DNA from: a virus
Length of the DNA: 28,926 nucleotides
Direction: 5' to 3' (one strand)
Virus record (IMG/VR): IMGVR_UViG_3300047319_000419
Location: 1 to 28,926 of that record
Below the pieces are notes generated by a model. The model did no database searches. It saw nothing but the letters and a program-made list of their open reading frames with translations, and was not told the origin of the DNA. The stretch's first letter is position 1. Each line of letters begins with the position of its first letter. The position numbers and the translations under genes were made by a program. Below are positions 2,860-16,464 of the stretch, in pieces.

Positions 2860-3223
2860 TTACACACGGTTTCGCGCCCGGCAACACCGGGTTTCGTAGC
2901 CTGCTACACCTAGTTTCGCCCAAAGGGTCCCGTAACCGTCCCGTAAACCCGTTTCGGTGGGTCAACTTCCGCGCCAATAAAGGGATGTGGGGTTATCGGG
3001 CCGGTTCCTGTTTAGAATAGGCTTACGAATCGGCATGTTGTTTCCCTTCCTAGTGTTACACCGGGTTTCGGCGGACCGGTCCCGCCGTCCGAAACGATGT
3101 GTAACCTTGTGAACCCTGTGAACGCAGTGATTTTCAAAGCGTCCCGTACTAGTCCTGTAGACGCCCCAAACCGTCCCCGAAACCATGTGTAGTCCTATGG
3201 CCTTGACGCGAAACGAAGTGTAG
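2860..3223. promoter_or_regulatory. Cluster of 15-base operator/stoperator-like sites (CGAAACNNNGTGTAR)
   Basis: Six perfect copies of the motif lie at 2860-2874, 2904-2918 and 3056-3070 (minus orientation) and 3090-3104, 3178-3192 and 3209-3223 (plus orientation). A near copy ending GTGTTG is at 2882-2896, and a half-site with GTTTCG is at 2951-2956. The first three start exactly 22 bases apart. Left-hand copies all point one way and right-hand copies the other. Intact copies recur only at 13418-13456 and 16428-16442, each time upstream of a rightward gene set. I infer a regulator-binding array; iterons of an origin or integrase arm sites are alternatives. Confidence 0.65.
3055..3105. repeat. 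51-base imperfect dyad containing two inverted motif copies
   Basis: The segment begins GTTACAC and ends GTGTAAC, with GTTTCGG and CCGAAAC as inner arms, and a perfect 10-base palindrome GGACCGGTCC at 3073-3082 near the centre. It is formed by the motif copies at 3056-3070 and 3090-3104, where the array switches orientation. It may be a cooperative binding site; an attP core or origin element is possible. Confidence 0.55.
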
Positions 3224-3233
3224 AATTGGTGCA
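3221..3233 (+). promoter_or_regulatory. -10 element for a probably leaderless transcript
   Basis: TAGAAT at 3221-3226 differs from TATAAT at one base and is followed 7 bases later by the A of the next gene's ATG. Transcription would therefore begin at or beside the start codon, which fits the absence of a ribosome site. The -10 overlaps the last three bases of the motif copy at 3209-3223, so a bound regulator would block polymerase. No convincing -35 is present at 17-18 bases. Confidence 0.5.
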
Positions 3234-3415
3234 TGGATAAAGACGCGCCGCAACCCCTCGTGCTGGATATGCAGGAGCCGGAACTAATCATGTGGGACGG
3301 CGCGGGAACGGCGCACTTCCTAGCACGAGGGAATAACAACATGTCACCCAGAGTATCTGCCATCACCGTGGCGCTACTGAAGCTGGCAATCTCAGAGATT
3401 GAGGCCGCCAAGTGA
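3233..3415 (+). CDS. Small hypothetical protein, leaderless start
   Basis: A 60-residue protein of unknown function. The N-terminal half is acidic with a M-x-x-P-E-L-I-M-W-D-G stretch; the C-terminal half is predicted helical (I-T-V-A-L-L-K-L-A-I-S-E-I-E-A-A-K). No Shine-Dalgarno sequence precedes the ATG, and a -10 element ends 6 bases before it, so translation is probably leaderless. The stop overlaps the GTG of the next gene. The pair forms a short unit directly under the repeat array, between the late terminator and the terminator that faces the integrase. Confidence 0.6.
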   Translation: MDKDAPQPLVLDMQEPELIMWDGAGTAHFLARGNNNMSPRVSAITVALLKLAISEIEAAK

Positions 3416-3678
3416 TCCCGGACGAGGCTGTCGAAGCGGCGGCGCGCGGGATAGTTGCGTCGCTTCCCAATGACGCTGAATTTGAGATGCACCGTACCTG
3501 GGCAACTGGATATGCTCGCGCCGCCCTCGAAGCTGCGGCGCCGCACCTTGCGGCGGACGCTTGGGATGAGGGCGCATTGTCCGGGTGGAATCAGTCCGGT
3601 GAAGGCTGGAATTCCGAGTACCCTGACGAGTCAACCGGCAAGTGCTCCGTGGACCTGAGCAATAACCCGTACCGTTAG
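3412..3678 (+). CDS. Hypothetical early protein, 88 residues
   Basis: GTG start overlapping the previous stop as GTGA. The N-terminal two thirds are amphipathic helices rich in Ala and Glu (A-V-E-A-A-A-R-G-I-V, then Y-A-R-A-A-L-E-A-A-A-P-H-L), a pattern often seen in small actinophage proteins of unknown role. The C-terminal third is polar with three tryptophans. Cotranscribed with the gene at 3233 and closed by the terminator at 3691-3715. No function can be assigned. Confidence 0.65.
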   Translation: MIPDEAVEAAARGIVASLPNDAEFEMHRTWATGYARAALEAAAPHLAADAWDEGALSGWNQSGEGWNSEYPDESTGKCSVDLSNNPYR

Positions 3679-3690
3679 CACCACAACAAA

Positions 3691-3715
3691 GCCCCCACTT
3701 CGGTGGGGGCCTTTT
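3691..3715. terminator. Terminator between convergent transcripts
   Basis: An 8-bp GC-rich stem (3691-3698 with 3703-3710) with a TTCG loop is followed by CTTTTC on the plus strand. On the minus strand it is preceded by the integrase stop and followed by a weaker T-rich run. It lies between the rightward gene ending at 3678 and the leftward integrase ending at 3716, so it probably works in both directions. Confidence 0.85.
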
Positions 3716-4906
3716 CTACGTCCCGAAGATTTCGAGGGCTTCCCCGGTGTCGATGGGGGTAAGGGATTGGGCTATGTAGTGGGCGCGGGTAACTTTGTCG
3801 CTCGCGTGGCCGAGCTGCTTGGAGGCGAGGACGGAACCGTGCGCCTCATCAACAAGGGTCGCGACGGTCTTACGCAACGTCTTCTGCGTGACCCATGACC
3901 ATTCAGAGTCCTTGAACGTTGCCGCCCACGCCCTAGCGACGTTCCTGGGGGCGAGCAGGTTGCCCTTGCCCGTATGGAACACCATCGGCCCCGTTGCCGT
4001 CCCCTTCCGTTCACGGAGCATTTCGAGGACGACACCGCGCAACCTGAGCCGGCGAATGTCGTGTTCCTTTGTGGGCCTGAGTTGCAGCCCGTTACCCGGC
4101 TCACGGACGACCTGCTGCCGGATCTCCACCCACGGCTCAGGCGCGTCCAAGTGCACGTCCTCCCACGCAAGCCCCAGGACCTCACCAGCACGGCAACCCG
4201 TCGCCAACAGGAAATGCATCACATCCAACGGCAACTGCCCGCGGTTCTTCCCACCCATCTTCGACGTGTCACCGTTCGCGCGGGCTAACCGTTCCTCATA
4301 CGTGTACGGCTTCAACCGCTCCACCGCATAATCACGCATCGCCACCACCTCAGCAACCGTGAGCGCACGGATCGGCTTCCTAGCCTGCTTCGGGACCGGC
4401 ACATAACCGACAGGGTTCATGCCCGCAGCACCCCACCTGACAGCCGCCGTAAACATCCCCGACAGTTTGCTACGCACGTTGAACGACGCACCCGGGCCAT
4501 GCTCACGCGTCACATCCCGGACCAGCTTCTCCACAACCTGCGGCGACACCTCACGAATCCGGAACTTCCCCAACTTCGGGACGATGTGGTTATCCAGGCA
4601 CAGCCGCAAGTTATACAACGTGTTCGCGGCTAGACCGTCCTCCTGCTTCGCGGCCCAATACTTCTCCGCCAACTCAGACACCCGCGACTCACTATCCAGA
4701 TCCACACCACCCGCGGACTTAGCACGCTGCTTGAACTTCACCTTCAACGCCGACTCAGCAGCACCCCTAGAAGACCCCTGAGCCTTCACACGCCGCGTCT
4801 CGCCATCCACATCCCTGTAACGCGCCATCGCCACATGCTTACCATCCGGCGACCTCGAATAGCTGATATGGCCGTAGTCACCTATGGCTAGTTGTGGACG
4901 TGGCAC
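3716..4906 (-). CDS. int: Tyrosine-family site-specific integrase
   Basis: A 396-residue recombinase that would integrate the phage at a host attachment site. Residues 1-60 form the arm-type DNA-binding region, about 70-180 the core-binding SAM-like domain, and 190-385 the catalytic domain. Visible catalytic residues are R239 (A-T-G-C-R-A-G-E), K280, R345 (T-L-R-K-T-V-A-T), H367 (L-G-H-A-S-D) and Y377 (R-A-H-Y-I-A). The position normally held by the first box II histidine is K342, an unusual substitution. The GTG start is supported by AGGGG 7 bases upstream and by a strong promoter ending 26 bases before it. The gene reads leftward, convergent with 3233-3678. Confidence 0.93.
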   Translation of the reverse strand: MPRPQLAIGDYGHISYSRSPDGKHVAMARYRDVDGETRRVKAQGSSRGAAESALKVKFKQRAKSAGGVDLDSESRVSELAEKYWAAKQEDGLAANTLYNLRLCLDNHIVPKLGKFRIREVSPQVVEKLVRDVTREHGPGASFNVRSKLSGMFTAAVRWGAAGMNPVGYVPVPKQARKPIRALTVAEVVAMRDYAVERLKPYTYEERLARANGDTSKMGGKNRGQLPLDVMHFLLATGCRAGEVLGLAWEDVHLDAPEPWVEIRQQVVREPGNGLQLRPTKEHDIRRLRLRGVVLEMLRERKGTATGPMVFHTGKGNLLAPRNVARAWAATFKDSEWSWVTQKTLRKTVATLVDEAHGSVLASKQLGHASDKVTRAHYIAQSLTPIDTGEALEIFGT

Positions 4907-4932
4907 CCGTTACCCCTGACATTAGTGAAGTG

Positions 4933-4962
4933 CTTATACTCCATTTTCCCACGAATTGTCAA
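4933..4962 (-). promoter_or_regulatory. Integrase promoter
   Basis: On the minus strand TTGACA (4962-4957) and TATAAG (4938-4933) are separated by 18 bases. It lies between the stop of the metallopeptidase gene and the integrase GTG, so integrase can be transcribed apart from the two upstream lysogeny genes. The 5' leader would be about 20 bases and contains the ribosome site. Confidence 0.75.
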
Positions 4963-4967
4963 GTAAG

Positions 4968-5369
4968 TCACGCGGCGACCATCATTGCGGCACGCATACG
5001 GATGGCGGGGCATTTTTGGCACTCCCAACAGCCGGCCTCGGATGCCTGGGAGTCCGTCAACGTCGCGGCCCGGTCCATGAGGACCCGCTTCGTTACACCC
5101 AGCAGCTTCGCCGTCTCCGACAACGGCCCCGACTTACACACACCCGCGATCCGGTCCAGAGGCAGCAACCGCCGCGCCGTCTCATAGCGCACGGACATCT
5201 CCTCAGACTCCAACTGCCGTGTTCCCTGGCCCCGCTCCACATGGATCATTTCGTGGACCATCGTGCACATCAACTGTTCCGCCGTGAGCCGGTCATCAAC
5301 GAAGATCCGCTCCCCGTCCGTGTAACCGTGAACACCCTCGGGCAAACGACCAATAACCACCTGAACCAT
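4968..5369 (-). CDS. ImmA/IrrE-like metallopeptidase
   Basis: A 133-residue protein with V-H-E-M-I-H (H39, E40, H43), the zinc-binding HExxH motif of the ImmA/IrrE family. In ICEBs1 and related phages such proteases cleave the neighbouring repressor to trigger induction. An extended strand (R-I-F-V-D-D-R-L) precedes the motif, as in that family. The C-terminal half ends with C114-W-E-C117-Q-K-C120, a possible second metal-binding knuckle. The gene is downstream of, and in the same direction as, the putative repressor. GTGGGG precedes the ATG. The protease role is inferred from the motif and context. Confidence 0.75.
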   Translation of the reverse strand: MVQVVIGRLPEGVHGYTDGERIFVDDRLTAEQLMCTMVHEMIHVERGQGTRQLESEEMSVRYETARRLLPLDRIAGVCKSGPLSETAKLLGVTKRVLMDRAATLTDSQASEAGCWECQKCPAIRMRAAMMVAA

Positions 5370-5427
5370 GACAACCCCACAACATGTCGATCCCCAGCCC
5401 CCCAGTGGTGCCGATTGGGGATAACAA

Positions 5428-5520
5428 TAAGGTCACTGTCTGACAATTTGGGTCGAAAGTATGTTCGGAAACCGTCACGATTTCAGCATAAATCAGATAA
5501 CAAACCGTTACGTGACCTTA
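5428..5520. promoter_or_regulatory. Spaced inverted repeat in the repressor-metallopeptidase gap
   Basis: The 172-base gap between the two leftward genes holds TAAGGTCAC (5428-5436) and its exact complement GTGACCTTA (5512-5520), about 75 bases apart. GATAACAA also occurs near each arm (about 5420 and 5495). The AT content is higher than in neighbouring genes. It may hold a promoter and operators for the metallopeptidase gene, allowing expression apart from the repressor. I could not assign a clear -35/-10 pair. Confidence 0.35.
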
Positions 5521-5541
5521 TCGGTGCAGGTCAGGGGCCAT

Positions 5542-6015
5542 TCAGTCCCTATCATCCTCACCCGGAACATGCTCATCCGACGCGGCCAAATCATAGTGAT
5601 TCTGATCACTGTGCAGCGGGACCACGTTCGACGGGGTCACCATCTCATCCACCTGAGCGCGCAAATTACCCAGCCGGCGAGTCAGTTCCGCCAGCAACTC
5701 AGCATCAGACAAATCACGGGCCTTGACCAGACCAGGATCCGGCAAAGCCGCCCAGTCTCGCACTTCACTGAGCGTGAACTTCTGCGTGATCGGCGCCTCT
5801 AGGATCTCGGTCACGACCCCACGACGCCAGCCAAGCGCGTCCTCCAGCATGCCCCGAGACTTCTGCTGCGGCGACGACGAACCATCCTTCCAGCCATAAA
5901 AAGTGCGACGGGCCGACAACGACCAACCCCTCACAACGTCACTCGGCCCCCGACGAGATTCCTCCAACTCCTGCCCGATCAAACGGGACAGCTCATCTCT
6001 GTTGTCTTCGCTCAT
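5542..6015 (-). CDS. Probable immunity repressor, HTH protein
   Basis: A 157-residue protein. Residues about 7-70 form a helical domain with a helix-turn-helix-like stretch (S-A-R-R-T-F-Y-G-W-K-D-G, then L-E-D-A-L-G-W-R-R-G-V-V), resembling XRE-type repressors of actinophages. A helical segment follows (L-S-D-A-E-L-L-A-E-L-T-R-R-L-G-N-L), probably for dimerisation, and the tail is acidic. It reads away from the Cro-like gene with an approximately 350-base control region between, the classic arrangement of a lysogeny switch. AGGAG lies 12 bases before the ATG, longer than usual, so an unusual upstream start cannot be excluded. Confidence 0.7.
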   Translation of the reverse strand: MSEDNRDELSRLIGQELEESRRGPSDVVRGWSLSARRTFYGWKDGSSSPQQKSRGMLEDALGWRRGVVTEILEAPITQKFTLSEVRDWAALPDPGLVKARDLSDAELLAELTRRLGNLRAQVDEMVTPSNVVPLHSDQNHYDLAASDEHVPGEDDRD

Positions 6016-6154
6016 ATCGCTAATGTGCTCCTACTTCAAGAAAAATCCAAGGTCTGCGGCTACCTGACTTTCACCTAGTTACACGGCTGTCAGATACCTA
6101 GTGCAGCGACACCCCCTGCTTGGGGTGCATGGCTACATCGTCCTTCATCAACCG

Positions 6155-6309
6155 GTGCAATACCAAAGATTTTTTGTAGTTCGCCGAAGCCCCAAAAGCG
6201 CAATAATCGCTGCGACACGCCCAACTTTTGCACCGCGTTTCCCGCGGAATCTAGGGGTTTTGCACTGTATTGCATCTTTAGGTCTTGTAATATTGCACTT
6301 TATTGCACT
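6155..6309. promoter_or_regulatory. Phased TTGCAC operator array in the repressor/Cro control region
   Basis: TTGCAC occurs at 6228, 6260, 6293 and 6303, TTGCAT at 6270, and the reverse complement GTGCAA at 6155-6160. Two sites are tandem pairs with half-sites 10 bases apart (6260/6270 and 6293/6303). The single and paired sites are spaced 32-33 bases, about three helical turns, so all would face one side of the DNA. The flanking sequence (6016-6365) carries no convincing gene. I infer operators for the repressor and/or the Cro-like protein. I could not assign the rightward or leftward promoter confidently. Confidence 0.65.
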
Positions 6310-6365
6310 AGTCTTCAAACATCAGCCAGGGACAAGCCCCGGCAAAGAAATACGGAGGCAAGCAA

Positions 6366-6593
6366 ATGAGCAAGGTAACCAACATCGACAACGCCCGCAT
6401 CGGACGGATTCTCAAGCGCGAACGCGAAGCAAAGTGCCTCACGCAGGTCGCGTTCGCCAAGGCCATCGGGTGCGACCAGTCCACCCTCGCCTCCTACGAG
6501 TCGGGTGCACGACCGATCCCCGCTAACCGGGTGCCGGCCATCGCGCAGACCCTCGACCTCGACCCCCGATACGTGAACCCAAAAGCCGCGTGA
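6366..6593 (+). CDS. Cro/C1-type HTH regulator
   Basis: A 75-residue XRE-family protein, first gene of the early operon. The HTH reads R-E-A-K-C-L-T-Q-V-A-F-A-K-A-I-G-C-D-Q, then S-T-L-A-S-Y-E-S-G-A-R-P-I-P, the standard Q-x-x-x-A-x-x-x-x-V/I-x-x-x-x-I-x-x-x-E-x-G pattern. Only the DNA-binding domain is present, as in Cro proteins or short activators. GGAGG lies 7 bases before the ATG. It sits divergently from the repressor and probably binds the TTGCAC sites just upstream to favour lytic growth. Confidence 0.82.
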   Translation: MSKVTNIDNARIGRILKREREAKCLTQVAFAKAIGCDQSTLASYESGARPIPANRVPAIAQTLDLDPRYVNPKAA

Positions 6594-6760
6594 TGGCAGT
6601 GACGACCATCTGGTCCACCACCCATACCGCCCCAATCACCTTCGACCGGATCAGCCCGACCATCGTGCAAATCACCCTCGAAGACGGATCAACCCAGATC
6701 TACAACGCAGCGGACCTCGAAGCGGTCTGCAAAACCGAATCAGACCAGGAGAAGAAATGA
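6593..6760 (+). CDS. Small hypothetical protein, 55 residues
   Basis: The start overlaps the previous stop (TGATG). The protein is a mostly beta peptide with T-A-P-I-T-F-D-R-I-S and V-Q-I-T-L-E-D-G-S-T-Q-I-Y, followed by an acidic helical end. It is the second gene of the early operon, and its stop overlaps the next ATG. No known domain is recognised. Confidence 0.6.
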   Translation: MAVTTIWSTTHTAPITFDRISPTIVQITLEDGSTQIYNAADLEAVCKTESDQEKK

Positions 6761-6939
6761 CCGCCAAGACCAGCCCCCAGCACCGTGCAGAACCGTCCGC
6801 CGAAACCCTCGAATTCTGGCAGCGCGAAGAAAACCTCCACCGCATCCACGGTGTGAAGCCCGAAATCCTCCCCGGCTTCGGCAAGCACCGCGCCCCGTCC
6901 ATCATGGCCGCACCCGAGGCCGAAGCTGAGGCCGCGTGA
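6757..6939 (+). CDS. Small hypothetical protein, 60 residues
   Basis: ATG overlaps the previous stop, with AGGAG 6 bases upstream. The polar N-terminus is followed by a helical W-Q-R-E-E-N-L-H-R-I-H-G stretch, a Pro/Gly-containing segment and an Ala/Glu-rich tail. Part of the tightly packed early operon; no function recognised. Confidence 0.55.
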   Translation: MTAKTSPQHRAEPSAETLEFWQREENLHRIHGVKPEILPGFGKHRAPSIMAAPEAEAEAA

Positions 6940-7304
6940 TGGGCCGCGTAACCGAACCCGAGGCGCGGCAGATCATCCGGGAGTTGTGCGCCCAGTTCAT
7001 CGAAGACGAACCCGCCCGCTCCGAGAGCGTCATGGCTGAGTTGGACCGGCTCGAACAGCTCGAAGACGACATCACCGCCGCAATCGGTGCGGACATCCGT
7101 CACGGGTCACTCGTGGACGTGCTGACAACGCTCGACGGGTTCCAGTCCGTTGAGTGCGGCACCCACCCCGACCTCATCCAAAACCAGGCGCTCACGGTCA
7201 ACACGGCCCCCGACATCCTGGACCGCCTCGAATCACAGCTCCGGGAGGATCTTTACTTCGTCCTCCAAACAGCCGGCTTCACAGCACGGAGGTACGCGGC
7301 ATGA
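6939..7304 (+). CDS. Hypothetical helical protein, 121 residues
   Basis: The ATG at 6939 overlaps the preceding stop as TGATG; a GTG three bases upstream would add one residue. The product is strongly acidic and helical (E-A-R-Q-I-I-R-E-L-C-A-Q-F-I, then E-L-D-R-L-E-Q-L-E-D-D), with a second helical block at the C-terminus (L-D-R-L-E-S-Q-L-R-E-D-L). It may be a small coiled-coil protein. No family recognised. Confidence 0.6.
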   Translation: MGRVTEPEARQIIRELCAQFIEDEPARSESVMAELDRLEQLEDDITAAIGADIRHGSLVDVLTTLDGFQSVECGTHPDLIQNQALTVNTAPDILDRLESQLREDLYFVLQTAGFTARRYAA

Positions 7305-7489
7305 GCATTCGGTTCGTGATCCGCAAGAACGGATCCGAGGACTTCCCGTGGGCATTTCGTGACGCTATCTGCGCCAAGGCCGAACATCACGACTTCCGCT
7401 GGTGGGGTTGGGGACGCGAGTGCGGTGGCTCCTGCAACGCATTCGCCACCCACGCGGATGCCATCGAAGAACTGAGGTACGCGGCATGA
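7301..7489 (+). CDS. Small hypothetical protein, Trp/His/Cys-rich
   Basis: A 62-residue protein with an ATGA overlap on the previous gene. It starts with a beta strand (S-I-R-F-V-I-R-K-N-G) and has a central W-W-G-W-G-R-E-C-G-G-S-C segment rich in aromatic and Cys residues, next to H-H-D-F. The end (A-I-E-E-L-R-Y-A-A) resembles the end of the preceding gene (A-R-R-Y-A-A), and both share the sequence GGTACGCGGCATGA at the junction. Confidence 0.55.
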   Translation: MSIRFVIRKNGSEDFPWAFRDAICAKAEHHDFRWWGWGRECGGSCNAFATHADAIEELRYAA

Positions 7490-7599
7490 ACGCCCTGATC
7501 CTCATCCTCCTGCTAATCCCCGCGGGCCTCATGATCCGCCCCGCCATCCGCCACGACAACAACCTACCCATCAGCATCACAGGAAAGGCACGCAAATGA
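7486..7599 (+). CDS. Single-span small membrane protein
   Basis: A 37-residue peptide whose residues 3-20 (A-L-I-L-I-L-L-L-I-P-A-G-L-M-I) form one transmembrane helix, followed by a basic tail. Its ATG overlaps the previous stop and its stop overlaps the next ATG. Such micro-proteins are common in phage early operons; the role is unknown. Confidence 0.55.
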   Translation: MNALILILLLIPAGLMIRPAIRHDNNLPISITGKARK

Positions 7600-7751
7600 G
7601 CACCGAAACCAAAGAGCGCACGCCACTGGCAATCCGCCTCTACAACGCATCACTCGCAAGCCGGGAACTTCCCACCGTGGAGGACTGGGCATCGATTCAC
7701 CCGGACATCCGCAAAGAGTTCGAGGCAATCGCCAAAGCGGCACGCAAGTGA
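7596..7751 (+). CDS. Small hypothetical protein, 51 residues
   Basis: ATG overlaps the preceding stop (ATGA) with AGGAAAGG upstream. The helical peptide contains L-A-I-R-L-Y-N-A-S-L-A-S-R-E-L-P and ends with a basic helix (E-F-E-A-I-A-K-A-A-R-K). The stop overlaps the GTG of the next gene. Confidence 0.55.
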   Translation: MSTETKERTPLAIRLYNASLASRELPTVEDWASIHPDIRKEFEAIAKAARK

Positions 7752-8086
7752 CTATCAGCCGAGCGGACTACATCGCCCAAACCGTTGCAGCCGCACCACC
7801 ACTCTCCAACGAAGTCATCGACTACATAGCCGTTCTGCTTAGCCCGCAATCCGGGGCCGAGCCGGGGCCAAGGATCATCTCGCAGGCAGAGGCAGAACGC
7901 CAGCGCATAGAGACCGAGCGCGTAACCGGACTCGAAGCGGCGAAGAGACTCTCAGCAAGCCTCATGGCATGTGACATTTGCGACCTCCCACCCGAAGCCC
8001 ACGACGCACAACAGCGATACGGGGCATTCCACGAGTGGCAACCAGGCAGGGCAGAGAAAGTCATGAAACGAAAGGCAAAACGATGA
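7748..8086 (+). CDS. Hypothetical protein with CxxC, 112 residues
   Basis: GTG start overlaps the previous stop as GTGA. A helical N-terminal half is followed by a charged segment (A-E-A-E-R-Q-R-I-E-T-E-R). A C-terminal A-C-D-I-C-D-L-P-P-E-A-H with downstream H-E-W could bind zinc (Cys-Cys-His-His). The last residues are very basic (K-R-K-A-K-R). Similar C-x-x-C...H modules are frequent in small actinophage proteins. Function unknown. Confidence 0.58.
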   Translation: MTISRADYIAQTVAAAPPLSNEVIDYIAVLLSPQSGAEPGPRIISQAEAERQRIETERVTGLEAAKRLSASLMACDICDLPPEAHDAQQRYGAFHEWQPGRAEKVMKRKAKR

Positions 8087-8229
8087 TCGAACGTACCGGC
8101 AACCTCGAAGTGCACCGCCCCGAACGCCGCGACTGGGAAACCGAGGGATGGCGGGACATCGAAAAGCAAACCAGGGCCACCATCAACCGGCTCCTCACCG
8201 ACCAAAACAACCCGGACGGTGACCAGTGA
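8083..8229 (+). CDS. Small hypothetical protein, 48 residues
   Basis: ATGA overlap with the previous gene. Highly charged, with W-E-T-E-G-W-R-D-I-E-K-Q-T and a helical R-A-T-I-N-R-L-L-T segment. Nothing in it points to a function; it is kept because it fits the overlapping gene chain and shows coding-like third positions. Confidence 0.5.
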   Translation: MIERTGNLEVHRPERRDWETEGWRDIEKQTRATINRLLTDQNNPDGDQ

Positions 8230-8354
8230 ACGACTGGACGGATGAAGACGAACCCCGCCGCCACCCACTCAGCAAAAGCATGTGCCCCTGCGAAGACTGC
8301 ACCGCCGACGACGGCGCACAAACCACCGACCTAGACCCAGAGGAGTTCAACTAA
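8226..8354 (+). CDS. Small acidic Cys-rich protein, 42 residues
   Basis: GTG start overlaps the previous stop; the TAA overlaps the ATG of the RecE-like gene. It contains C-P-C-E-D-C, a possible metal site, inside a strongly acidic peptide. It may be a small accessory or inhibitor of neighbouring DNA enzymes, but this is only position-based. Confidence 0.5.
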   Translation: MNDWTDEDEPRRHPLSKSMCPCEDCTADDGAQTTDLDPEEFN

Positions 8355-10662: not shown

Positions 10663-10674
10663 CCACTTCCACCC

Positions 10675-10701
10675 GGTGCCCCGTCGCAATGGCGGGGCAC
10701 C
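10675..10701 (+). repeat. GC-rich hairpin upstream of a ribosome site
   Basis: GGTGCCCCG (10675-10683) pairs with CGGGGCACC (10693-10701) around a 9-base loop. There is no T-run, and GAAAGG for the next gene begins a few bases later. It more likely modulates mRNA stability or translation between SSB and the next gene than terminates transcription. Confidence 0.5.
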
Positions 10702-10716
10702 ACCGAAAGGAACACC

Positions 10717-11001: not shown

Positions 11002-11321
11002 AAAACCCCACCGTCCACCGTGACACCTGCGGGACACCCGCCGGTTACCGCGCACACACCCACCGCGGCGAAGAACGCTGCGAACCATGCAAGAAGGCAT
11101 GGACAAAGAACTGCGAACAATACCGGCGCGCAACCCGCCCAAGCACGCAGATCATCATCGAAGAAATAGAATGGCTCCTCAAAGCCCACCAAGGGCAGCA
11201 GTACATCCTCAAAGCCATCGGCTACACCGGACGCGAACTAACCCTCAGGGGCCGCCTGGAGAAGCACGGACGCGCCGACCTCGCACGCCGCCTACTGAAC
11301 ATGGAAGACCAGGCAGCATGA
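10998..11321 (+). CDS. Zinc-knuckle protein, 107 residues
   Basis: The ATG at 10998 overlaps the previous stop, so the longer upstream open frame is not used. The N-terminus C-G-T-P-A-G-Y-R-A-H-T-H-R-G-E-E-R-C-E-P-C-K matches a widespread actinophage pattern (C/H-G-T-x-x-G-Y-x-x-H...C-x-x-C) and probably binds one zinc. The remainder is helical and contains I-I-I-E-E-I-E-W-L-L-K. Located just before the replication gene; possibly DNA-binding. Confidence 0.68.
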   Translation: MKNPTVHRDTCGTPAGYRAHTHRGEERCEPCKKAWTKNCEQYRRATRPSTQIIIEEIEWLLKAHQGQQYILKAIGYTGRELTLRGRLEKHGRADLARRLLNMEDQAA

Positions 11322-11668
11322 GCCTCCCGTGGGTCCGGTTGGACACCGCAATGCCCCGAAACCACAAAATTCTGGCACTTCTAGAGGCCCGTGGCGGCAA
11401 AGAATCAGCGTTCGTTTACGTCTGCTCACTGTCCTACTGCGGCGAACAAGGCCTCGAAGGATTCTTCCCCAAAGCAGCCCTCCCCTTCATCCACGCCAAA
11501 CCAGTAGACGCCCAACGCCTCGTAGACGTAGGCCTCTGGATTGAACAGCCAGGCGGGTGGATGGTCAACGGCTGGACCGACTACCAACCCACCGACGAAC
11601 AGAACCGGAAGCGATCCGAAAAGGCAAAGAAGGCAGCAGCGGCCCGATGGGAAAAGGCCAAAGTCTGA
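11318..11668 (+). CDS. Replication-initiator-like winged-helix protein, possibly truncated
   Basis: A 116-residue protein beginning S-L-P-W-V-R-L-D, with a helical/winged core (H-K-I-L-A-L-L-E-A-R-G, F-V-Y-V-C-S-L-S) and W-M-V-N-G-W-T-D-Y-Q-P-T. It then has a basic R-K-R-S-E-K-A-K-K-A-A-A-A-R-W helix. This matches the N-terminal region of phage replication proteins of the DnaD/replisome-organiser type, in which the R/K/A helix is normally followed by a low-complexity linker and a second domain. Here the frame stops right after A-R-W-E-K-A-K-V, while the +1 frame continues with linker-like sequence. It may therefore be frame-disrupted. Confidence 0.65.
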   Translation: MSLPWVRLDTAMPRNHKILALLEARGGKESAFVYVCSLSYCGEQGLEGFFPKAALPFIHAKPVDAQRLVDVGLWIEQPGGWMVNGWTDYQPTDEQNRKRSEKAKKAAAARWEKAKV

Positions 11669-11675
11669 TGCCACA

Positions 11676-11709
11676 AGCAATGCTCCAAGCATTGCTAACC
11701 AAGCAATGC
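11676..11709. repeat. Inverted plus direct repeat of AGCAATGC
   Basis: AGCAATGCT (11676-11684) and AGCATTGCT (11688-11696) are perfect inverted arms with a 3-base spacer, and AGCAATGC returns at 11702-11709. In the +1 frame these read Ser-Asn-Ala / Ser-Ile-Ala, so the repeat may simply reflect linker coding. The 11669-11824 stretch otherwise shows no independent gene. Confidence 0.6.
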
Positions 11710-11824
11710 ACGTACGGACGGACGCACGAACGTCTAACCTCGCCTTTCGCTTCGCTTGGCTTCTAAAGAAGTTGGGGTACTTTCCGCCGCCGACGTCACC
11801 TACTTAACGCGAAGGTCTCACACC

Positions 11825-12175
11825 ATGACAGAAAAATTCGACTATCACGACGCCTACGACCTAACCAGAATGATCCGCAGACGACGCCCCGCATGGAACG
11901 AGAAGGGCGTCCTCAACTCACTACAGCAAGCAGCATCAAGGGGCGCTTCACTCACTCAGGTGATGGCGGCGGCGGAAAAGACCTGGAACAACCAAAAAGC
12001 CACAACCCCAGCCGCGATCCTGTGGCCGGAACATTGGGAAGTGGTCAAGTCCAAGACAGCCGGGAATCTGATGGGTGACCAGCTTTGCATCGAATGCGTC
12101 ACCAAGAAACCCGTCACCGAAATGACCAAACACGCCCACGGCTGGGTCTGCAACACACACGGGGAGGAATCATGA
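11825..12175 (+). CDS. Replication-associated hypothetical protein, 116 residues
   Basis: ATG at 11825 with a weak GAAGG upstream. Helices R-M-I-R-R-R-R-P-A-W and V-L-N-S-L-Q-Q-A-A-S-R-G lead to T-T-P-A-A-I-L-W-P-E-H-W, a pattern like the C-terminal domain of actinophage replication initiators (helices, then T-x-x-P-x-x-L-x-x-x-x-W). A C-terminal C-I-E-C...C-N-T-H could bind zinc. Together with the gene at 11318 it may be a split initiator. The stop overlaps the methyltransferase ATG. Confidence 0.6.
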   Translation: MTEKFDYHDAYDLTRMIRRRRPAWNEKGVLNSLQQAASRGASLTQVMAAAEKTWNNQKATTPAAILWPEHWEVVKSKTAGNLMGDQLCIECVTKKPVTEMTKHAHGWVCNTHGEES

Positions 12176-12999
12176 GGCACGTCCGGTACTTCAGCATGTT
12201 CACCGGCATAGGCGGCTTTGAGCTCGGCATCGAACAAGCAGCCCAAGAACTAGGGCTCACCACCGAATGCGTCGGCTACTCCGAAATCGACACCCACGCC
12301 ATTACCACCTACGAAAGGCACTACCAGCATGACAACTACGGTGACGCCACACTCATCGACCCCGCTGCCCTTCCAGAGTTCGATCTTCTCGTTGGTGGCT
12401 TTCCCTGCCAGGCCTTCAGTATCGCCGGCAAACGCCTCGGATTCGATGAAGCCCGCGGAACACTCTTCTTCGACATCGCCCGCATCCTGGACGCACGACA
12501 GCCCCAACACTTCATCCTCGAAAACGTCAAAGGCCTCGTCAACCACAACGGCGGGCAAACTCTCCGAACCATCCTCCGCGCCCTTGATGGGCTGGGGTAT
12601 GACGTCCAGTGGAAGGTACTCAACAGCAAAGACCACGGCGTACCCCAAAACCGGGAACGCATATACCTTGTCGGAAATCTTGGAGGAACACCCCGACCCG
12701 AAGTATTTTCTGCCAGCGGACCGTGTAACCCGTATACGACAGTCGGCGTCACAGCAGAAGCCACAGTTGCTCGAACACTCACCGCAGGCGGACACAGCGG
12801 CGGGAACCACAGCGGCATGACAATCCTACGCACACCTGACGGTGACCGCCGGCTAACCCCTGTCGAATGGGAACGCCTCCAGGGCTTCCCAGACGGCTGG
12901 ACCATCGGCAGCGACACGCAGCGTTACAAACAATGCGGAAACGCCGTCACCGTCAACGTCGTCCGACACGTAGCAACCCGACTCCTGGACACCAAATGA
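12172..12999 (+). CDS. C5 cytosine DNA methyltransferase
   Basis: A 275-residue enzyme transferring a methyl group from AdoMet to cytosine C5. Conserved motifs: I F-S-M-F-T-G-I-G-G-F (7-16), IV G-G-F-P-C-Q (catalytic C79), VI E-N-V (117-119), VIII Q-N-R-E-R (159-163), IX R-L-T-P-V-E-W-E-R-L-Q-G-F-P (227-240) and X G-N-A-V (256-259). The target-recognition segment between VIII and IX is only about 60 residues, at the short end for the family. The ATG overlaps the previous stop after GGGGAGG. No restriction partner is adjacent, so it is an orphan phage enzyme, probably shielding phage DNA from host restriction or acting on replication. Confidence 0.93.
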   Translation: MRHVRYFSMFTGIGGFELGIEQAAQELGLTTECVGYSEIDTHAITTYERHYQHDNYGDATLIDPAALPEFDLLVGGFPCQAFSIAGKRLGFDEARGTLFFDIARILDARQPQHFILENVKGLVNHNGGQTLRTILRALDGLGYDVQWKVLNSKDHGVPQNRERIYLVGNLGGTPRPEVFSASGPCNPYTTVGVTAEATVARTLTAGGHSGGNHSGMTILRTPDGDRRLTPVEWERLQGFPDGWTIGSDTQRYKQCGNAVTVNVVRHVATRLLDTK

Positions 13000-13400
13000 C
13001 TATTGAGAATGGTTCGCAAGTAGCAAGCGGGTCCCGTTCCCGCGCGCGGAGTAGGCGTTCGGCGAAGGCTGCCGGCTCGTCGTTTGAGCGTGGCACGGCG
13101 GACTTCCTGAAGGTGAATGGGTTCCCGTTCGCTGACCGCCGGGTGAAGTCAGGCGCGAAGGACAAGGGGGACATTGGTGGGGTTCATGTTCATGGCCGGC
13201 CTGTGGTGTTGGAGTGCAAGAACACGGCCCGGATCAATCTGGGTTCGTGGGCTGCTGAGGCTGAGGTGGAGCGGGTGAACGATGGCGCCCTAGTAGGCCT
13301 GATCGTCCACAAGCGCCACGGTAAGGGCCAAGCGGGCGATCAGTGGGTGACGATGACCCTCGCCGATTTTGTGGCCCTCACAACGGGCACGCGGCCCTAA
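12996..13400 (+). CDS. Hjc-like PD-(D/E)XK nuclease (Holliday junction resolvase type)
   Basis: A 134-residue nuclease. After a basic Ser/Arg-rich N-terminus come S-S-F-E-R-G (E31), D-K-G-D-I-G-G (D59) and V-V-L-E-C-K-N (E73, K75), the spacing of archaeal Hjc and phage junction resolvases. A helical C-terminal part follows. It would cut branched intermediates left by RecT annealing before packaging. Third positions use G more than C compared with its neighbours, hinting at a different origin. It overlaps the methyltransferase by 4 bases and ends the early operon. Being a restriction partner of the methyltransferase is possible but less likely. Confidence 0.72.
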   Translation: MTIENGSQVASGSRSRARSRRSAKAAGSSFERGTADFLKVNGFPFADRRVKSGAKDKGDIGGVHVHGRPVVLECKNTARINLGSWAAEAEVERVNDGALVGLIVHKRHGKGQAGDQWVTMTLADFVALTTGTRP

Positions 13401-13417
13401 CTTTTGCCCGAAAATAG

Positions 13418-13459
13418 TTACACACGGTTTCGTACAATTCACGAAACGAAGTGTAGAAT
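13418..13459. promoter_or_regulatory. Inverted pair of 15-base motif copies with overlapping -10
   Basis: Perfect copies lie at 13418-13432 (minus) and 13442-13456 (plus). Their inner arms GTTTCGT (13427-13433) and ACGAAAC (13441-13447) form a perfect dyad with a 7-base spacer. TAGAAT at 13454-13459 overlaps the plus copy exactly as at 3221-3226; the 19 bases CGAAACGAAGTGTAGAATT are identical at both places. It precedes the operon starting at 13507. I infer a regulated promoter; no clear -35 is seen. Confidence 0.62.
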
Positions 13460-13506
13460 TATAGCATCGGCCCGAAGCAGCGGACCCGAACCCGGAGATG
13501 AGCACC

Positions 13507-13644
13507 ATGACAATCATCGATGAACTAATCACCCTCGTGGACAACCTGGACGAGGACGGCCACGACTACAAAGACGTGCGGGCTATCAAGCGGATCGCGC
13601 ACAACCTCGCCAAGATCGCCGAGAACCTGAAGGCATCGGCATGA
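13507..13644 (+). CDS. Small helical protein, 45 residues
   Basis: Start at 13507 is preferred because GGAG lies 9 bases upstream; an in-frame ATG at 13498 has no room for a ribosome site. The product is an acidic then basic helix (L-I-T-L-V-D-N-L-D-E-D-G, A-I-K-R-I-A-H-N-L-A-K-I-A-E-N-L). First gene of the second rightward operon. Function unknown. Confidence 0.6.
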   Translation: MTIIDELITLVDNLDEDGHDYKDVRAIKRIAHNLAKIAENLKASA

Positions 13645-13922
13645 CGCTCGACTTCAACGGGGCCCTCTGGGGGATTCCTGCGGGCGGCTTCCCGGACCCG
13701 GCACTGGACCCGGAAGGGCAGGAGTTGGTCGCCCGGATTCATGCGAGGAAGTTGGAGTCGGATCTGGCCCGGCAGGAAGCGAACCACGCGAGGCTCGTGT
13801 CTGAGGCCGCAGCGTTGGGCACACGACCCGAAGCCCGGTCAGCGTGGGAACTCGTCCACGAAGCAGCCGGCATCAAAGCCCGCACCATCTCACGACTCAC
13901 ACAACTTAGGTGGACAGCATGA
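13641..13922 (+). CDS. Hypothetical protein, 93 residues
   Basis: ATGA overlap with the previous gene. A short beta/Gly-Pro N-terminus (A-L-W-G-I-P-A-G-G-F) is followed by one long helical region rich in Ala, Glu and Arg (E-L-V-A-R-I-H-A-R-K-L-E-S-D-L-A-R-Q), compatible with a coiled coil. Ends L-R-W-T-A, similar to the end of the 32-residue gene at 14125 (M-D-W-T-A). Confidence 0.58.
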   Translation: MTLDFNGALWGIPAGGFPDPALDPEGQELVARIHARKLESDLARQEANHARLVSEAAALGTRPEARSAWELVHEAAGIKARTISRLTQLRWTA

Positions 13923-14128
13923 GCACGAGACACCGGGTCGATCAGGCCATGGCAAAGCTTCTCGCAGAGCCTGACGCCGCATGGGCGCATGAGACGTGGA
14001 CGGAAGGCAACACCGTCGTCTTCGCCTTCTCGCAGGAGCGGTCCGCGCAACTCATCAGCGAAGCCCTGCACCACATGTTCAAATCGATCCGCCCCGCGCT
14101 GATTCACAACGGAAGGAAGCCCCGATGA
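13919..14128 (+). CDS. Hypothetical protein, 69 residues
   Basis: ATGA overlap with the upstream gene. A helical start (V-D-Q-A-M-A-K-L-L-A-E-P) leads to a strand T-V-V-F-A-F-S-Q-E and a second helix (Q-L-I-S-E-A-L-H-H-M-F), with a basic end. Small alpha/beta fold likely. No family recognised. Confidence 0.55.
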   Translation: MSTRHRVDQAMAKLLAEPDAAWAHETWTEGNTVVFAFSQERSAQLISEALHHMFKSIRPALIHNGRKPR

Positions 14129-14223
14129 AATCCTGGCTGACCTCGTTCATTGCCCGGCATCTGATCGGCACCGACCCGAACCCGCAACCCTCACGCCTCG
14201 ACAGAATGGACTGGACCGCATGA
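14125..14223 (+). CDS. Micro-protein, 32 residues
   Basis: ATGA overlaps on both sides and GGAAGG upstream support translation. The N-terminal K-S-W-L-T-S-F-I-A-R-H-L-I-G is amphipathic and might bind membrane; the rest is polar. No function can be given. Confidence 0.48.
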   Translation: MKSWLTSFIARHLIGTDPNPQPSRLDRMDWTA

Positions 14224-14459
14224 GCCTAGACCTAGACGCCATCGAAGCACGGCGAGCCGACTGCCAGACGTACAACTTTGGGATGCGGAACGCCGACAAG
14301 CTCGCCCACGAAGACGTCCCCGCCCTCCTCGCCATGGTGCGGGAACAACAGGCCACGATAGAGCGGGTGGCTACGGTCGCGGATAAATGGTGGGCCAATT
14401 TCCCATCCAAGGCGCGCGCCATCCGGGACGCGCTCTACCCCGCACCGGAGGCGTCATGA
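14220..14459 (+). CDS. Ead/Ea22-like small protein, 79 residues
   Basis: ATGA overlap with the previous gene. It opens S-L-D-L-D-A-I-E-A-R-R-A, with later V-P-A-L-L-A-M-V-R-E-Q-Q-A-T-I-E-R-V. This layout is that of small phage proteins that list a D-A-I-x-A-R segment, an L-L-A-x-V helix and a short coiled coil, often called Ead/Ea22-like. Their function is not settled. Confidence 0.58.
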   Translation: MSLDLDAIEARRADCQTYNFGMRNADKLAHEDVPALLAMVREQQATIERVATVADKWWANFPSKARAIRDALYPAPEAS

Positions 14460-14641
14460 GTCAGCGTCTCCCGGATTACGACGATCTCCGTGCACGGCAG
14501 GCACGCGCCCAGGAACCCGCAACCCCGTTGTCTGAGTGGGAGATCGCGGGCAGGCGGGCACTCCACGAAATCGGCGCCCAACTCACCGCCGGCAACTACA
14601 ACATCAACCGCATCCGCGACATCCTCGAAAAGGCGGCATAA
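14456..14641 (+). CDS. Hypothetical protein, 61 residues
   Basis: Starts at the ATG overlapping the previous stop. Charged helical N-terminus (Y-D-D-L-R-A-R-Q-A-R-A-Q-E), then W-E-I-A-G-R-R-A-L-H-E-I-G-A-Q-L and a final helix (I-N-R-I-R-D-I-L-E-K-A-A). All-helical; role unknown. Confidence 0.55.
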   Translation: MSQRLPDYDDLRARQARAQEPATPLSEWEIAGRRALHEIGAQLTAGNYNINRIRDILEKAA

Positions 14642-14644
14642 AGC

Positions 14645-14866
14645 ATGGCGAACACCAACTCGACTTCATCCTCTGGCACTGCAAGCGTTGCTGGTCTGCT
14701 CGGCGTCGCCTTCGTCGTCCTCAAGCTGACCCATGTAATCGACTGGTCTTGGTGGTGGGTTCTCGCCCCGTTCTGGATACCGTTCATGGCCTTCCTGCTG
14801 TTCCTCACTGGCATCGTCGTCGTTGCAGTGGCGAAGGTTGCTCCGTGGCAGAAGGGTCGCCGATGA
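14645..14866 (+). CDS. Small two-span membrane protein
   Basis: A 73-residue protein with two hydrophobic helices: residues about 13-30 (A-S-V-A-G-L-L-G-V-A-F-V-V-L) and 37-65 (W-W-W-V-L-A-P-F-W-I-P-F-M-A-F-L). The end is basic (W-Q-K-G-R-R), suggesting a cytoplasmic C-terminus. It lies far from the lysis genes and in an early-type operon, so superinfection exclusion or host modification is more likely than lysis; this is inference only. Confidence 0.65.
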   Translation: MANTNSTSSSGTASVAGLLGVAFVVLKLTHVIDWSWWWVLAPFWIPFMAFLLFLTGIVVVAVAKVAPWQKGRR

Positions 14867-15651
14867 CCTGTTCGTGTGAAGCCAACGTCCCGGGCGTGTA
14901 CTTGTGCCACCGGTGTTGTGAGGCGTTGGAGCAGGTGTTGTCGGAACTGGACAGCGTGGTGGGTGATTTGGTGCGGGCTGTTCCGCGGGCGTCCCTGACG
15001 GCGAGCTACGGGGAACGGGTCAGCAGCACGGGTTCCCAGTTCGCGCCGTTGCCGGTGAACGAAGCCGCTTTGGATGCACACATAGCCCTCGACAAGTACC
15101 TCATGGTCACGGCGTTGGAGTTGGCGAAGGTCACGGGTGCCAGGCTCGCGGGCCGGGACAGTTCGGCACTCAGCTCGTACGTCCTCACCCATGTTGGGAC
15201 ACTCCGCATCCAGTCATGGGCGCCCGACGTCGAACCGACATTGCGGGGACTCGTCAGGGATTGTGAGAAGGCCACCCATACCGCGACGCAAGCCGAGTTC
15301 GCCGGCACCTGCCCCGAAGACGGTTCGGAACTGTTCACCCACGCTGGCGGGGCAACAGCAACCTGCCGGACCTGCTCCGTGGTTTACGAGGACGTGCAGG
15401 GTTGGCGGACCACGGCCAAAGCCTACGCCCGCCAAACCGACGACGACATCATCGGCTACCCCAAAGCACTCTCCGAACGCCTCAACAAGGTCCACGGCGA
15501 AACGGTCGGCGCCGACTACATCCGGGTACTCGCAGCCAGGGGGCTACTCTTCAGGGTCAACCCCGAACGCGGGGAGGACGGGAAGATCCTGCGGCCCATG
15601 TACCGGCTCGGCGACATCAAACAACTCATCACGAAGGAGGAAGCAGCATGA
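14863..15651 (+). CDS. Zinc-binding putative DNA-binding protein, 262 residues
   Basis: ATG at 14863 overlaps the previous stop, so the longer upstream open frame is not used. The N-terminus carries C3, C5, C15, C18 and C19, a possible zinc site. A long helical middle section follows. A second site has C150, then C168 and C171 (C-R-T-C-S-V-V-Y). The last 80 residues resemble a winged helix (Y-P-K-A-L-S-E-R-L, then I-R-V-L-A-A-R-G-L-L-F). It is the largest product of this operon and a good candidate for its regulator or effector. No precise family recognised. Confidence 0.62.
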   Translation: MTCSCEANVPGVYLCHRCCEALEQVLSELDSVVGDLVRAVPRASLTASYGERVSSTGSQFAPLPVNEAALDAHIALDKYLMVTALELAKVTGARLAGRDSSALSSYVLTHVGTLRIQSWAPDVEPTLRGLVRDCEKATHTATQAEFAGTCPEDGSELFTHAGGATATCRTCSVVYEDVQGWRTTAKAYARQTDDDIIGYPKALSERLNKVHGETVGADYIRVLAARGLLFRVNPERGEDGKILRPMYRLGDIKQLITKEEAA

Positions 15652-15935
15652 GCAAACCCAAAGGCCCTAGCGGTGTTGCGCTGGCATTCCTTATCGAAGG
15701 CGCCGAAGATGAGTTCCAGGAAGATAACCCGTGGCCCACGACCCAGCGCGCCGCGGCAGAGGCGATATTAGCCCGCTACGCCCTGACCCCACGCAAAGGT
15801 TTGGTTGGGGGCATGACTCGGAGCACCTTGAAGCGACTTGTGCTTGAAGCGTCAGGCCTTGAATGGGACCGGGCTGAAGCCGTTGCGGACCACATAATAG
15901 CGAATGGCGCGAAAGCCCGGGAGGAACACGCATGA
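15648..15935 (+). CDS. Hypothetical protein, 95 residues
   Basis: ATGA overlap and AAGGAGG upstream. Acidic N-terminal half, then two helical stretches (A-A-A-E-A-I-L-A-R-Y, A-E-A-V-A-D-H-I-I-A) separated by a basic loop. Might be a small DNA- or protein-binding helical protein; not recognised. Confidence 0.55.
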   Translation: MSKPKGPSGVALAFLIEGAEDEFQEDNPWPTTQRAAAEAILARYALTPRKGLVGGMTRSTLKRLVLEASGLEWDRAEAVADHIIANGAKAREEHA

Positions 15936-16135
15936 ATGGCGCTTGGCAGAACACGGACCCGGACGGCAAGAAGTGGGCGTTTGTTATCCACGGGCCGGAT
16001 GGCGAACCGATCAAAGACCACAAGGTTTACTTCGCCCACCAGAACGACGCGCAGGCATCAGCTTGGCGGCGTGGCCTAGATTCCTCCGCGGGATACTCTG
16101 TCAAGGAAATCCCATACAGGGAGGAAGCCGCATGA
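15932..16135 (+). CDS. Hypothetical beta-rich protein, 67 residues
   Basis: ATGA overlap with the previous gene and GGGAGG upstream. Strands K-K-W-A-F-V-I-H-G-P and H-K-V-Y-F-A-H, then a short helix, and Y-S-V-K-E-I-P-Y at the end. The order suggests a small alpha/beta domain. Function unknown. Confidence 0.55.
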   Translation: MNGAWQNTDPDGKKWAFVIHGPDGEPIKDHKVYFAHQNDAQASAWRRGLDSSAGYSVKEIPYREEAA

Positions 16136-16323
16136 AGCACGAACCCACCATGGAACGCTACATACTCACCCCACGCGAGGGCTACGTTCGACCGTTGACG
16201 GACATGGAGCGCGAGATGATCAACCTTGACCATTCCGTCGCGCACCTAATGAACTTTTGGCACGACGGGATCATGACCGAGGAAGAAGTCCGCCGCGTGC
16301 TCGGAGCGAGGGGCCTCGCATGA
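16132..16323 (+). CDS. Hypothetical protein, 63 residues
   Basis: ATGA overlap with the previous gene. Contains Y-I-L-T-P-R-E-G, echoing Y-A-L-T-P-R-K-G in the gene at 15648, then a helix-loop-helix (M-E-R-E-M-I-N-L-D-H-S-V-A-H-L, E-E-E-V-R-R-V-L-G-A-R-G-L). Could be a small DNA-binding or adaptor protein. Confidence 0.52.
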   Translation: MKHEPTMERYILTPREGYVRPLTDMEREMINLDHSVAHLMNFWHDGIMTEEEVRRVLGARGLA

Positions 16324-16427
16324 GCTTCATCTGTACGCTGTGGGGACACAAGGGCCGCTGGTCGCCGTGGCTGAAGACCTACTACTGCCGCTGGTGCCAC
16401 GAAGAAGTGACCCCGAAGTACAGATAG
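16320..16427 (+). CDS. Micro-protein with zinc knuckle, 35 residues
   Basis: ATGA overlap with the previous gene; the TAG ends one base before the next motif copy. C5, H10, C23 and C26 (Y-Y-C-R-W-C-H-E) could coordinate one zinc, and the peptide has four tryptophans. Last gene of the second operon. Similar short C-x-x-C peptides occur in many phages without known function. Confidence 0.5.
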   Translation: MSFICTLWGHKGRWSPWLKTYYCRWCHEEVTPKYR

Positions 16428-16464
16428 CGAAACGAAGTGTAACTCCGCACGAAATTAGGTGTTG
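16428..16464 (+). promoter_or_regulatory. 15-base motif copy plus a degenerate copy at the third operon
   Basis: A perfect copy lies at 16428-16442. A near copy with CGAAAT and GTGTTG lies at 16450-16464, starting exactly 22 bases later, the same spacing as the first three sites of the cluster at 2860. The near copy covers the first three bases of the -35 at 16462. A bound regulator would block the promoter. Confidence 0.6.

Follow-up and report, generated by a model that had tools for sequence, protein, structure and literature searches.

The window described here is a 28,926-base virus record (IMG/VR virus record IMGVR_UViG_3300047319_000419), to which all coordinates refer and which would represent about two-thirds of the genome if that genome resembles the one in a 42-kb related contig, G001. 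It contains a 15-base motif, CGAAACNNNGTGTAR, repeated at three control regions, as a first-pass annotation of the sequence had observed and as is confirmed here. The annotation further proposed that these sites (the “CGAAAC set”) and the TTGCAC repeats at the repressor/Cro switch (the “immunity switch”) are two distinct operator-like systems. This separation is borne out: the CGAAAC set is noncoding, is conserved in three related phage contigs (G001, G003, and G005), and stands apart from the TTGCAC switch. The sites are as follows.

2860 to 2874, minus strand: operator-like site CGAAACCGTGTGTAA, exact match; counterparts in G001, G003 (1 mismatch)
2882 to 2896, minus strand: near copy CGAAACCCGGTGTTG, from the mismatch search; counterparts in G001, G003
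2904 to 2918, minus strand: operator-like site CGAAACTAGGTGTAG, exact match; same letters in G001, G003
3056 to 3070, minus strand: operator-like site CGAAACCCGGTGTAA, exact match; counterparts in G001, G003
3090 to 3104, plus strand: operator-like site CGAAACGATGTGTAA, exact match; counterparts in G001, G003
3178 to 3192, plus strand: operator-like site CGAAACCATGTGTAG, exact match; counterparts in G001, G003
3209 to 3223, plus strand: operator-like site CGAAACGAAGTGTAG, its end running into TAGAAT (3221-3226)
13418 to 13432, minus strand: operator-like site CGAAACCGTGTGTAA, exact match; inverted partner of 13442
13442 to 13456, plus strand: operator-like site CGAAACGAAGTGTAG, running into TAGAAT (13454-13459)
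16428 to 16442, plus strand: operator-like site CGAAACGAAGTGTAA, exact match; counterparts in G001, G005 (1 mismatch)
16450 to 16464, plus strand: near copy CGAAATTAGGTGTTG, overlapping the late-promoter -35

An exact search finds the nine perfect copies of CGAAACNNNGTGTAR precisely where the annotation had placed them, against a mean of 0.02 and a largest value of 1 in 100 dinucleotide shuffles, a control by which chance is rejected as the origin of the copies. The two near copies it named are likewise recovered, with one mismatch at 2882 and two at 16450. When up to two mismatches are allowed, the window has 14 matches (shuffle mean 3.1), and the three additional ones, at 6228, 20478, and 27943, are at chance level. 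The annotation saw no copy in the coding DNA that it scanned, and all 11 sites are noncoding in a gene map in which noncoding DNA makes up 7.7% of the window. The motif is asymmetric rather than palindromic, and five sites (2860, 2882, 2904, 3056, and 13418) are on the minus strand. Starts exactly 22 bases apart occur as described, at 2860/2882/2904 and 16428/16450. The annotation's placement of all sites ahead of rightward gene sets is inexact, because the first three point to a leftward open reading frame (ORF) of 35 codons. When gapped words were counted de novo, CGAAACnnnGTGT ranked first in both the window and G001, the top word of G003 (CGAAAnnnnGTGTA) is an overlapping form of it, and the sole word listed for G005 (ACGAAAnnnnGTGT) is another. 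A count matrix was compiled from 41 sites.

Control regions

The features that accompany the sites at the three regions are these.

2696 to 2803, minus strand: leftward 35-codon ORF facing the 2860-2904 trio
2926 to 3165, no strand: putative attP, with arm-type direct repeats at about 2926-2950 and 3140-3165 and core CGCGCCAATAAAGGG at 2970-2984
3233 to 3678, plus strand: two small ORFs (60 and 88 amino acids) behind site 3209
13507 to 13644, plus strand: first gene of the second early operon (45 amino acids)
16462 to 16491, plus strand: sigma-70-like late promoter TTGACT-18-TACAAT, from the promoter scan; identical in G001, G005
16503 to 16533, plus strand: intrinsic terminator-like hairpin with U run (-23.6 kcal/mol, z -4.8); conserved
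16520 to 16801, plus strand: DUF7455 gene (PF24254, 9e-17), first past the late promoter and hairpin

Region 1 (2804-3232) has seven sites, the first four in minus and the last three in plus orientation, which surround and interleave with the putative phage attachment site, attP. The arm repeats of the latter resemble CGTCCCGTA(A/C) and lie on both sides of a core that is common to the window, G001, G003, and G005; the arm repeat differs in G005 (CGTCGAGTAA, CGTCGAGTA(A/C)), whose integrase is 58% identical. The bacterial partner, attB, was not found. At the right edge of the region, TAGAAT at 3221-3226 is a possible -10 element, 6 bases before the ATG at 3233, and the G001 counterpart of site 3209 runs, as read by eye, into the TTGACT of a TTGACT-17-TAGACT promoter. 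The interleaving of these seven sites with the putative attP raises the idea that the binder is an excisionase-like regulator, comparable to P2 Cox or 186 Apl, acting at attP and at promoters. This is very unlikely, as such factors are described, in the part of the source consulted, as binding direct repeats at intervals of 10-11 bp, or roughly one helical turn (PMC7498355), whereas the closest spacings here are 21-24, 31, and 34 bp and include inverted pairs; moreover, no excisionase gene was recognized.

In region 2 (13401-13506), sites 13418 and 13442 form an inverted pair separated by 9 bp, an arrangement retained in G001, G003 (1 mismatch), and G005. The plus-strand copy continues into TAGAAT in all four phages, a possible -10 of the second early operon. 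The early operon of the window has a DNA methyltransferase gene (12172-12999; PHROG 116, 2e-94), which tblastn did not find in G001, G003, or G005.

Region 3 (16428-16519) consists of a direct pair 22 bp apart whose second copy overlaps the TTGACT of the late promoter. The counterparts of site 16450 in G001 (CGAAACTAGGTGTTG) and G005 (CGAATTTAGGTGTTG) each precede an identical promoter, and in G003 the pair lies on the opposite strand and covers a different -35, that of TTGCAC-18-TATGAT (by eye). The promoter scan overall did no better than shuffles (2 found, mean 3.0), so that the late promoter is assigned from its own match together with the identical sequence in G001 and G005. About 12 bases beyond it comes the strong terminator-like hairpin, missing from the listing of a consensus scan, and then the DUF7455 gene. 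This layout is similar in relatives and suggests control by an antiterminator. Visual inspection of G006 and G020 likewise shows a promoter and, closely behind it, a hairpin ahead of the DUF7455 gene, and a similar unit lies one gene farther upstream in G007.

The geometry of region 3 bears on whether the sites could instead serve an activator, that is, a lytic-phase factor without which middle and late promoters would be off. In the window, G001, and G005 the direct sites are centered at about -41 and -63 from the putative start site, 21-22 bp apart, which is a classical activator position. In G003, however, the pair is reversed and shifted, to about -30 and -52, and elsewhere the sites run into the -10-like TAGAAT. 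The best activator candidate, the zinc protein encoded at 14863, does not track the motif (31% identity in motif-bearing G003 and 66% in motif-less G022). Activation is accordingly judged unlikely. Likely core promoter elements are overlapped in different registers (the -35 at 16450, TAGAAT at 13442 and 3209), and overlaps in several registers and in both orientations fit a steric block better than activation.

Conservation among relatives

The conservation that the annotation had proposed as a check is found, the sites being kept at corresponding places in G001, G003, and G005, where the exact core CGAAACNNNGTGT occurs 9, 7, and 4 times, respectively, in the whole records. It has no match in 20 of 20 other relatives (whole records; G006-G012 and 13 more), which were collected via the integrase, the metallopeptidase, or the zinc protein. 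For other analyses, seven contigs (G010, G012, G013, G018, G020, G022, and G023) were covered up to their last 43-2,302 bases. When viral contigs were scanned for two copies of the motif in direct orientation, four were picked out, G001 to G004. Of these, G002 and G004 (2 sites each) were dropped as apparently unrelated, with a G+C of 47% and 40% in the stretches read (16 of 57 kb for G002) and with their sites within tandem-repeat-like sequence. Inverted motif pairs were found only in G001, G003, and G005. A further scan for relatives yielded no new phage.

Among named phages, the first 14 kb of the window gave one 66-bp match, to Gordonia phage Gudmit, and no close relative, and the repressor had no match at E 1e-5. 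A related integrase occurs in 258 named-phage records, including 115 of Streptococcus, 50 of Gordonia, and 40 of Arthrobacter phages. As the best 20 of these 258 matches are to Arthrobacter, Rhodococcus, and Gordonia phages, the host is likely actinobacterial. A prophage search for the inverted pair in 84,980 genomes returned 21 stretches from Verrucomicrobia, Bacteroidetes, and others, none titled Actinobacteria, which were judged unrelated by title only. Within these stretches (L051-L071), inverted CGAAAC pairs with a common 31-base span recur in genome bins of several Verrucomicrobia and of one Bacteroidetes, and they probably belong to a dispersed repeat that has no link to this phage.

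The immunity switch

The lysogeny genes of the window and the switch are arranged as follows.

3716 to 4906, minus strand: tyrosine integrase
4968 to 5369, minus strand: ImmA/IrrE-like metallopeptidase, below the Pfam cut-off; PHROG metallo-protease, 2e-7
5542 to 6015, minus strand: repressor of 157 amino acids with a single XRE-type helix-turn-helix (HTH; residues 1-75), from model and fold comparison
6155 to 6308, no strand: immunity switch repeats TTGCAC
6366 to 6593, plus strand: Cro-like HTH protein

The annotation had placed TTGCAC repeats at this switch. Five of the 11 copies of TTGCAC/GTGCAA in the window do cluster there, and the other six are scattered. CGAAACNNNGTG is absent from the switches of the window, G001, G003, and G005. 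Two relatives, G006 and G007, encode a Cro 49% identical to that of the window, and their switches have 8 TTGCA matches each, compared with 6 in the window and 0-2 in ten others examined. As G006 and G007 share both this Cro and TTGCA-rich switches, and as this Cro was not found in the three motif-bearing relatives, TTGCAC goes with this Cro and CGAAAC does not.

Candidate binding proteins

The repressor, the Cro-like protein, and the zinc protein had been named as possible binders. For each window protein, full-query identity in the three motif-bearing relatives was compared with the best value in 17 motif-less contigs. The Cro-like protein has no tblastn match in G001, G003, or G005, which have other HTH proteins in its place; because these three phages retain the motif with a different Cro, it is an unlikely binder, as is the zinc protein on the identities given above. 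Likewise, the integrase (60% at worst in motif-bearing contigs, 65% in motif-less ones) and the metallopeptidase (71% and 81%) do not track the motif, and the metallopeptidase is an unlikely binder. The proteins that do track the motif are the repressor, those encoded at 6939-7304 and 6593-6760, and several small ones, and among these the repressor alone has a recognized DNA-binding fold. Ten other window proteins that were scanned had no Pfam domain above the cut-off.

The repressor model has a predicted local distance difference test (pLDDT) score of about 90 over residues 1-75 and a low-confidence C-terminal part. It compares at Z 7-8 with ComR, TP901-1 CI, and restriction-modification C proteins (C.AhdI), so that the modeled fold is that of an XRE-type HTH. 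A Foldseek search of the model gave no match at E <= 0.001, and a Pfam scan of the sequence gave no HTH match. The corresponding HTH in G001, G003, and G005 is 71-74% identical to that of the window, and this conserved HTH (the C-terminal one in relatives whose repressors have two) is the favored binder of the 15-bp sites.

Another motif-tracking protein, whether the 121-residue product of 6939-7304, the 55-residue product of 6593-6760, or an unrecognized one, might bind the sites instead. Identities to the first two are 88-91% and 87-96% in motif-bearing relatives and at most 32% and 62% elsewhere, and both occur in all three of the motif groups described below. Neither, however, has a Pfam domain or a PHROG assignment, and 6939-7304 is modeled as four long helices (mean pLDDT 81 in the best model and 52-59 in the other four), which leaves a binder of this kind rather unlikely.

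Variation of the motif with the repressor

Comparison with more distant relatives shows that the motif occurs in different “dialects” that vary with the conserved HTH. Contig G022 and the window are collinear in much of their early regions. The conserved HTH of G022 has 51% identity with that of the window and 47-52% across the four motif phages. This contig has 7 perfect sites of another form, TGWARAGAACTGYAM, whereas 22 other contigs, searched with one mismatch allowed, have none. Three of these sites (22216-22461) adjoin arm-type repeats, two are at 25832-25878, one directly precedes the ortholog of the gene at 13507, and one is upstream of the late region. They were found by reading intergenic DNA following weak matrix matches, and a de novo noncoding search missed them. 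Several (for example, 22216 and 22415, corresponding to L109 2216-2239 and 2415-2438) have CTTCC 5-6 bases farther on, which the N-terminal HTH of the two-HTH repressor of this phage may contact.

A third dialect, AGTGANNNNCAGT, typifies the eight contigs G013-G020, in which the metallopeptidase is 75-84% identical to that of the window and the conserved HTH, in the seven repressors that could be compared, 20-30%, within an overall range of 18-30%. In 6 of the 8, a de novo noncoding search ranks this motif, as such or shifted, as the top word; the eight contigs have 5, 5, 8, 6, 1, 9, 3, and 9 sites (Markov means 0.10-0.26). The single site in G017 is not above its control. Of 11 control contigs, 9 have none and 2 have one. 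In the five contigs that were mapped, the sites lie beside the integrase/metallopeptidase end and between early genes. A site is found upstream of the DUF7455 ortholog in 3 of the 3 contigs in which that gene was found (about 0.7 kb in G013 and G016, 0.1 kb in G020), and before the 13507 ortholog in G018, the sole mapped contig with that upstream DNA. In G020 one site abuts TTGACA. Matches in the switches of G018 and G020 (24780, 24665) were seen on inspection to lie at the start of the Cro gene, so that the third dialect is not claimed for the switch.

The N-terminal HTHs of G003, G005, G022, G013, and G016 are 61-96% identical to one another and occur with all three dialects. Moreover, G013 and G016 (two HTHs) share one dialect with G014, G015, G018, and G020, in which no N-terminal HTH was seen by inspection. 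That a shared N-terminal HTH occurs with three dialects indicates that the motif goes with the conserved HTH rather than with the N-terminal one.

The third motif also occurs in 73 database stretches, 16 with homologs of window proteins (only the methyltransferase in L122 and L176) and 57 without; by a rough estimate, a few dozen of the single matches are due to chance. Five stretches with backbone homologs (L115, L123, L127, L171, and L184) have 2-7 sites each, and no repressor match was found in them. In motif-less contigs, clustering-based de novo searches gave G+C-rich or unconvincing words and, in several, nothing; one clustered word in G015 is a terminator stem. The noncoding search listed nothing for the window because the crude gene mask covers the motif region. 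Literature searches found nothing for the three consensus strings and no report on repressor operators in Arthrobacter prophages, and no work was recognized, in the portions of the sources seen, as describing such a system.

In G018 (L103/L104), G020 (L106/L107), and G016 (L099/L100), CAGTGA-type tandem sites between early genes and near promoters have a stoperator-like appearance.

That the window sites are themselves true stoperators, blocking elongation as in cluster A mycobacteriophages, is extremely doubtful. They are asymmetric, 15 bp long, noncoding, and repressor-associated, and the G013-G020 cousins also have sites between early genes, but all those in the window lie at or near three promoter regions, in orientations independent of transcription.

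Proposed regulation

It is fairly probable that the 15-bp sites are operators of the conserved XRE-type HTH of the repressor, and the set as a whole is best read as a peripheral regulon that is distinct from the immunity switch and whose sites interleave with the putative attP. The sequences themselves show the sites, where these lie and how they are conserved, the predicted HTH fold, and the co-variation of motif and HTH. The identity of the binder, repression through its binding, cooperativity, and any effect on attP are what we infer from them. In a lysogen, the repressor would occupy promoters outside the switch, namely, the divergent ones that flank attP, that of the second early operon, and the late one with its hairpin. 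It would block RNA polymerase by masking -35 or -10 elements. Sites two helical turns apart may permit cooperative binding. The switch would be under a separate, exchangeable code (TTGCAC here) that is linked to the Cro-like protein and also, for some relatives, to the additional N-terminal HTH of the repressor.

Several points weigh against this proposal. The switch has no consensus site of the motif, the best match, at 6228 with 2 mismatches, being at chance level, and the window repressor has one HTH, which by itself does not account for what holds the TTGCAC switch. All three groups also have the proteins encoded at 6939-7304 and 6593-6760, which track the motif about as well. The association of motif and HTH is a sequence correlation among related phages whose contigs are mostly fragments, and as phage backbones co-vary, it is confounded with descent. 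The conserved HTH of G006 and G007 matches that of the window at 38% and, over 39 residues, 49%, yet these phages have no array; they have in common a single related 15-mer, CGCAACTTAGTGCAA, which immediately precedes a promoter on the upstream side of the late region, and otherwise have isolated weak matches. Taken alone, the -41/-63 placement in the window, G001, and G005 would also suit an activator. Finally, the consensuses for G022 and G013-G020 were written after the sites had been seen, and several contigs were scanned for them over the first 40 kb only.

A more general proposal, to which we give slightly less than even credence, is a “two-code lysogeny” in which the conserved HTH reads a peripheral code, existing in at least three dialects, and the switch code is swapped together with Cro and sometimes with the N-terminal HTH. 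If so, immunity type could change without rewiring of the rest of the genome, and sites embedded in attP could couple repressor level to integration or excision. Heteroimmunity usually involves a repressor and all of its operators changing together. Here, one peripheral operator set persists across different switches and Cro proteins and changes with one HTH domain. These phages would thus offer a natural domain-swap series for understanding how immunity is replaced while late-gene control is kept, as well as a sequence rule for predicting regulons in uncultivated phages of this group.

Comparison with known systems

The annotation had likened the sites to the stoperator/immunity arrangement of mycobacteriophage L5. 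That interpretation is partly supported overall, the parallel with L5 extending to “works somewhat like”: the asymmetric repeated sites agree, and their distribution, their orientation, and the switch operator do not. As described in the parts of the sources consulted, in L5-type phages a single code serves promoter operators as well as genome-distributed stoperators, with orientation tied to transcription (PMC9283540, PMC6550527), cluster A genomes have more than 20 distributed sites (PMC9283540), and the site consensus changes with the repressor between relatives (PMC6550527). The present system resembles cluster A phages (L5, Bxb1, and TipsytheTRex) in its short asymmetric noncoding repeats, its HTH repressor, and the joint variation of repressor and sites. 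It differs in the number and spread of its sites (11, grouped in three regions, in the 28.9-kb fragment and 9 exact cores in 42-kb G001), in an orientation that is not tied to transcription (the late pair of G003 is inverted, and 13418 opposes its operon), and in a switch that has a second, separate code and no consensus site. The cluster A repressor combines an HTH with a stoperator domain and binds as a monomer; the structures 7R6R and 7TZ1 were not among the fold matches listed for the present repressor model.

Other temperate phages offer narrower parallels. As with P2 Cox and 186 Apl, one motif occurs at both the putative attP and promoters, with differences in spacing, site length, and the use of inverted pairs. 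In the PR'-tR' late control of lambda, a promoter is followed by a terminator that is read through with an antiterminator. The promoter directly followed by a terminator-like hairpin ahead of the late genes is similar here, but this late promoter also has operator-like sites, and no antiterminator was identified, although no search was aimed at one. Like the CI/Cro switch of temperate phages, the window has a repressor gene and a Cro gene that diverge, accompanied by repeated operators (TTGCAC); unlike it, there is in addition a CGAAAC set that lies outside the switch and is kept where the switch is replaced.

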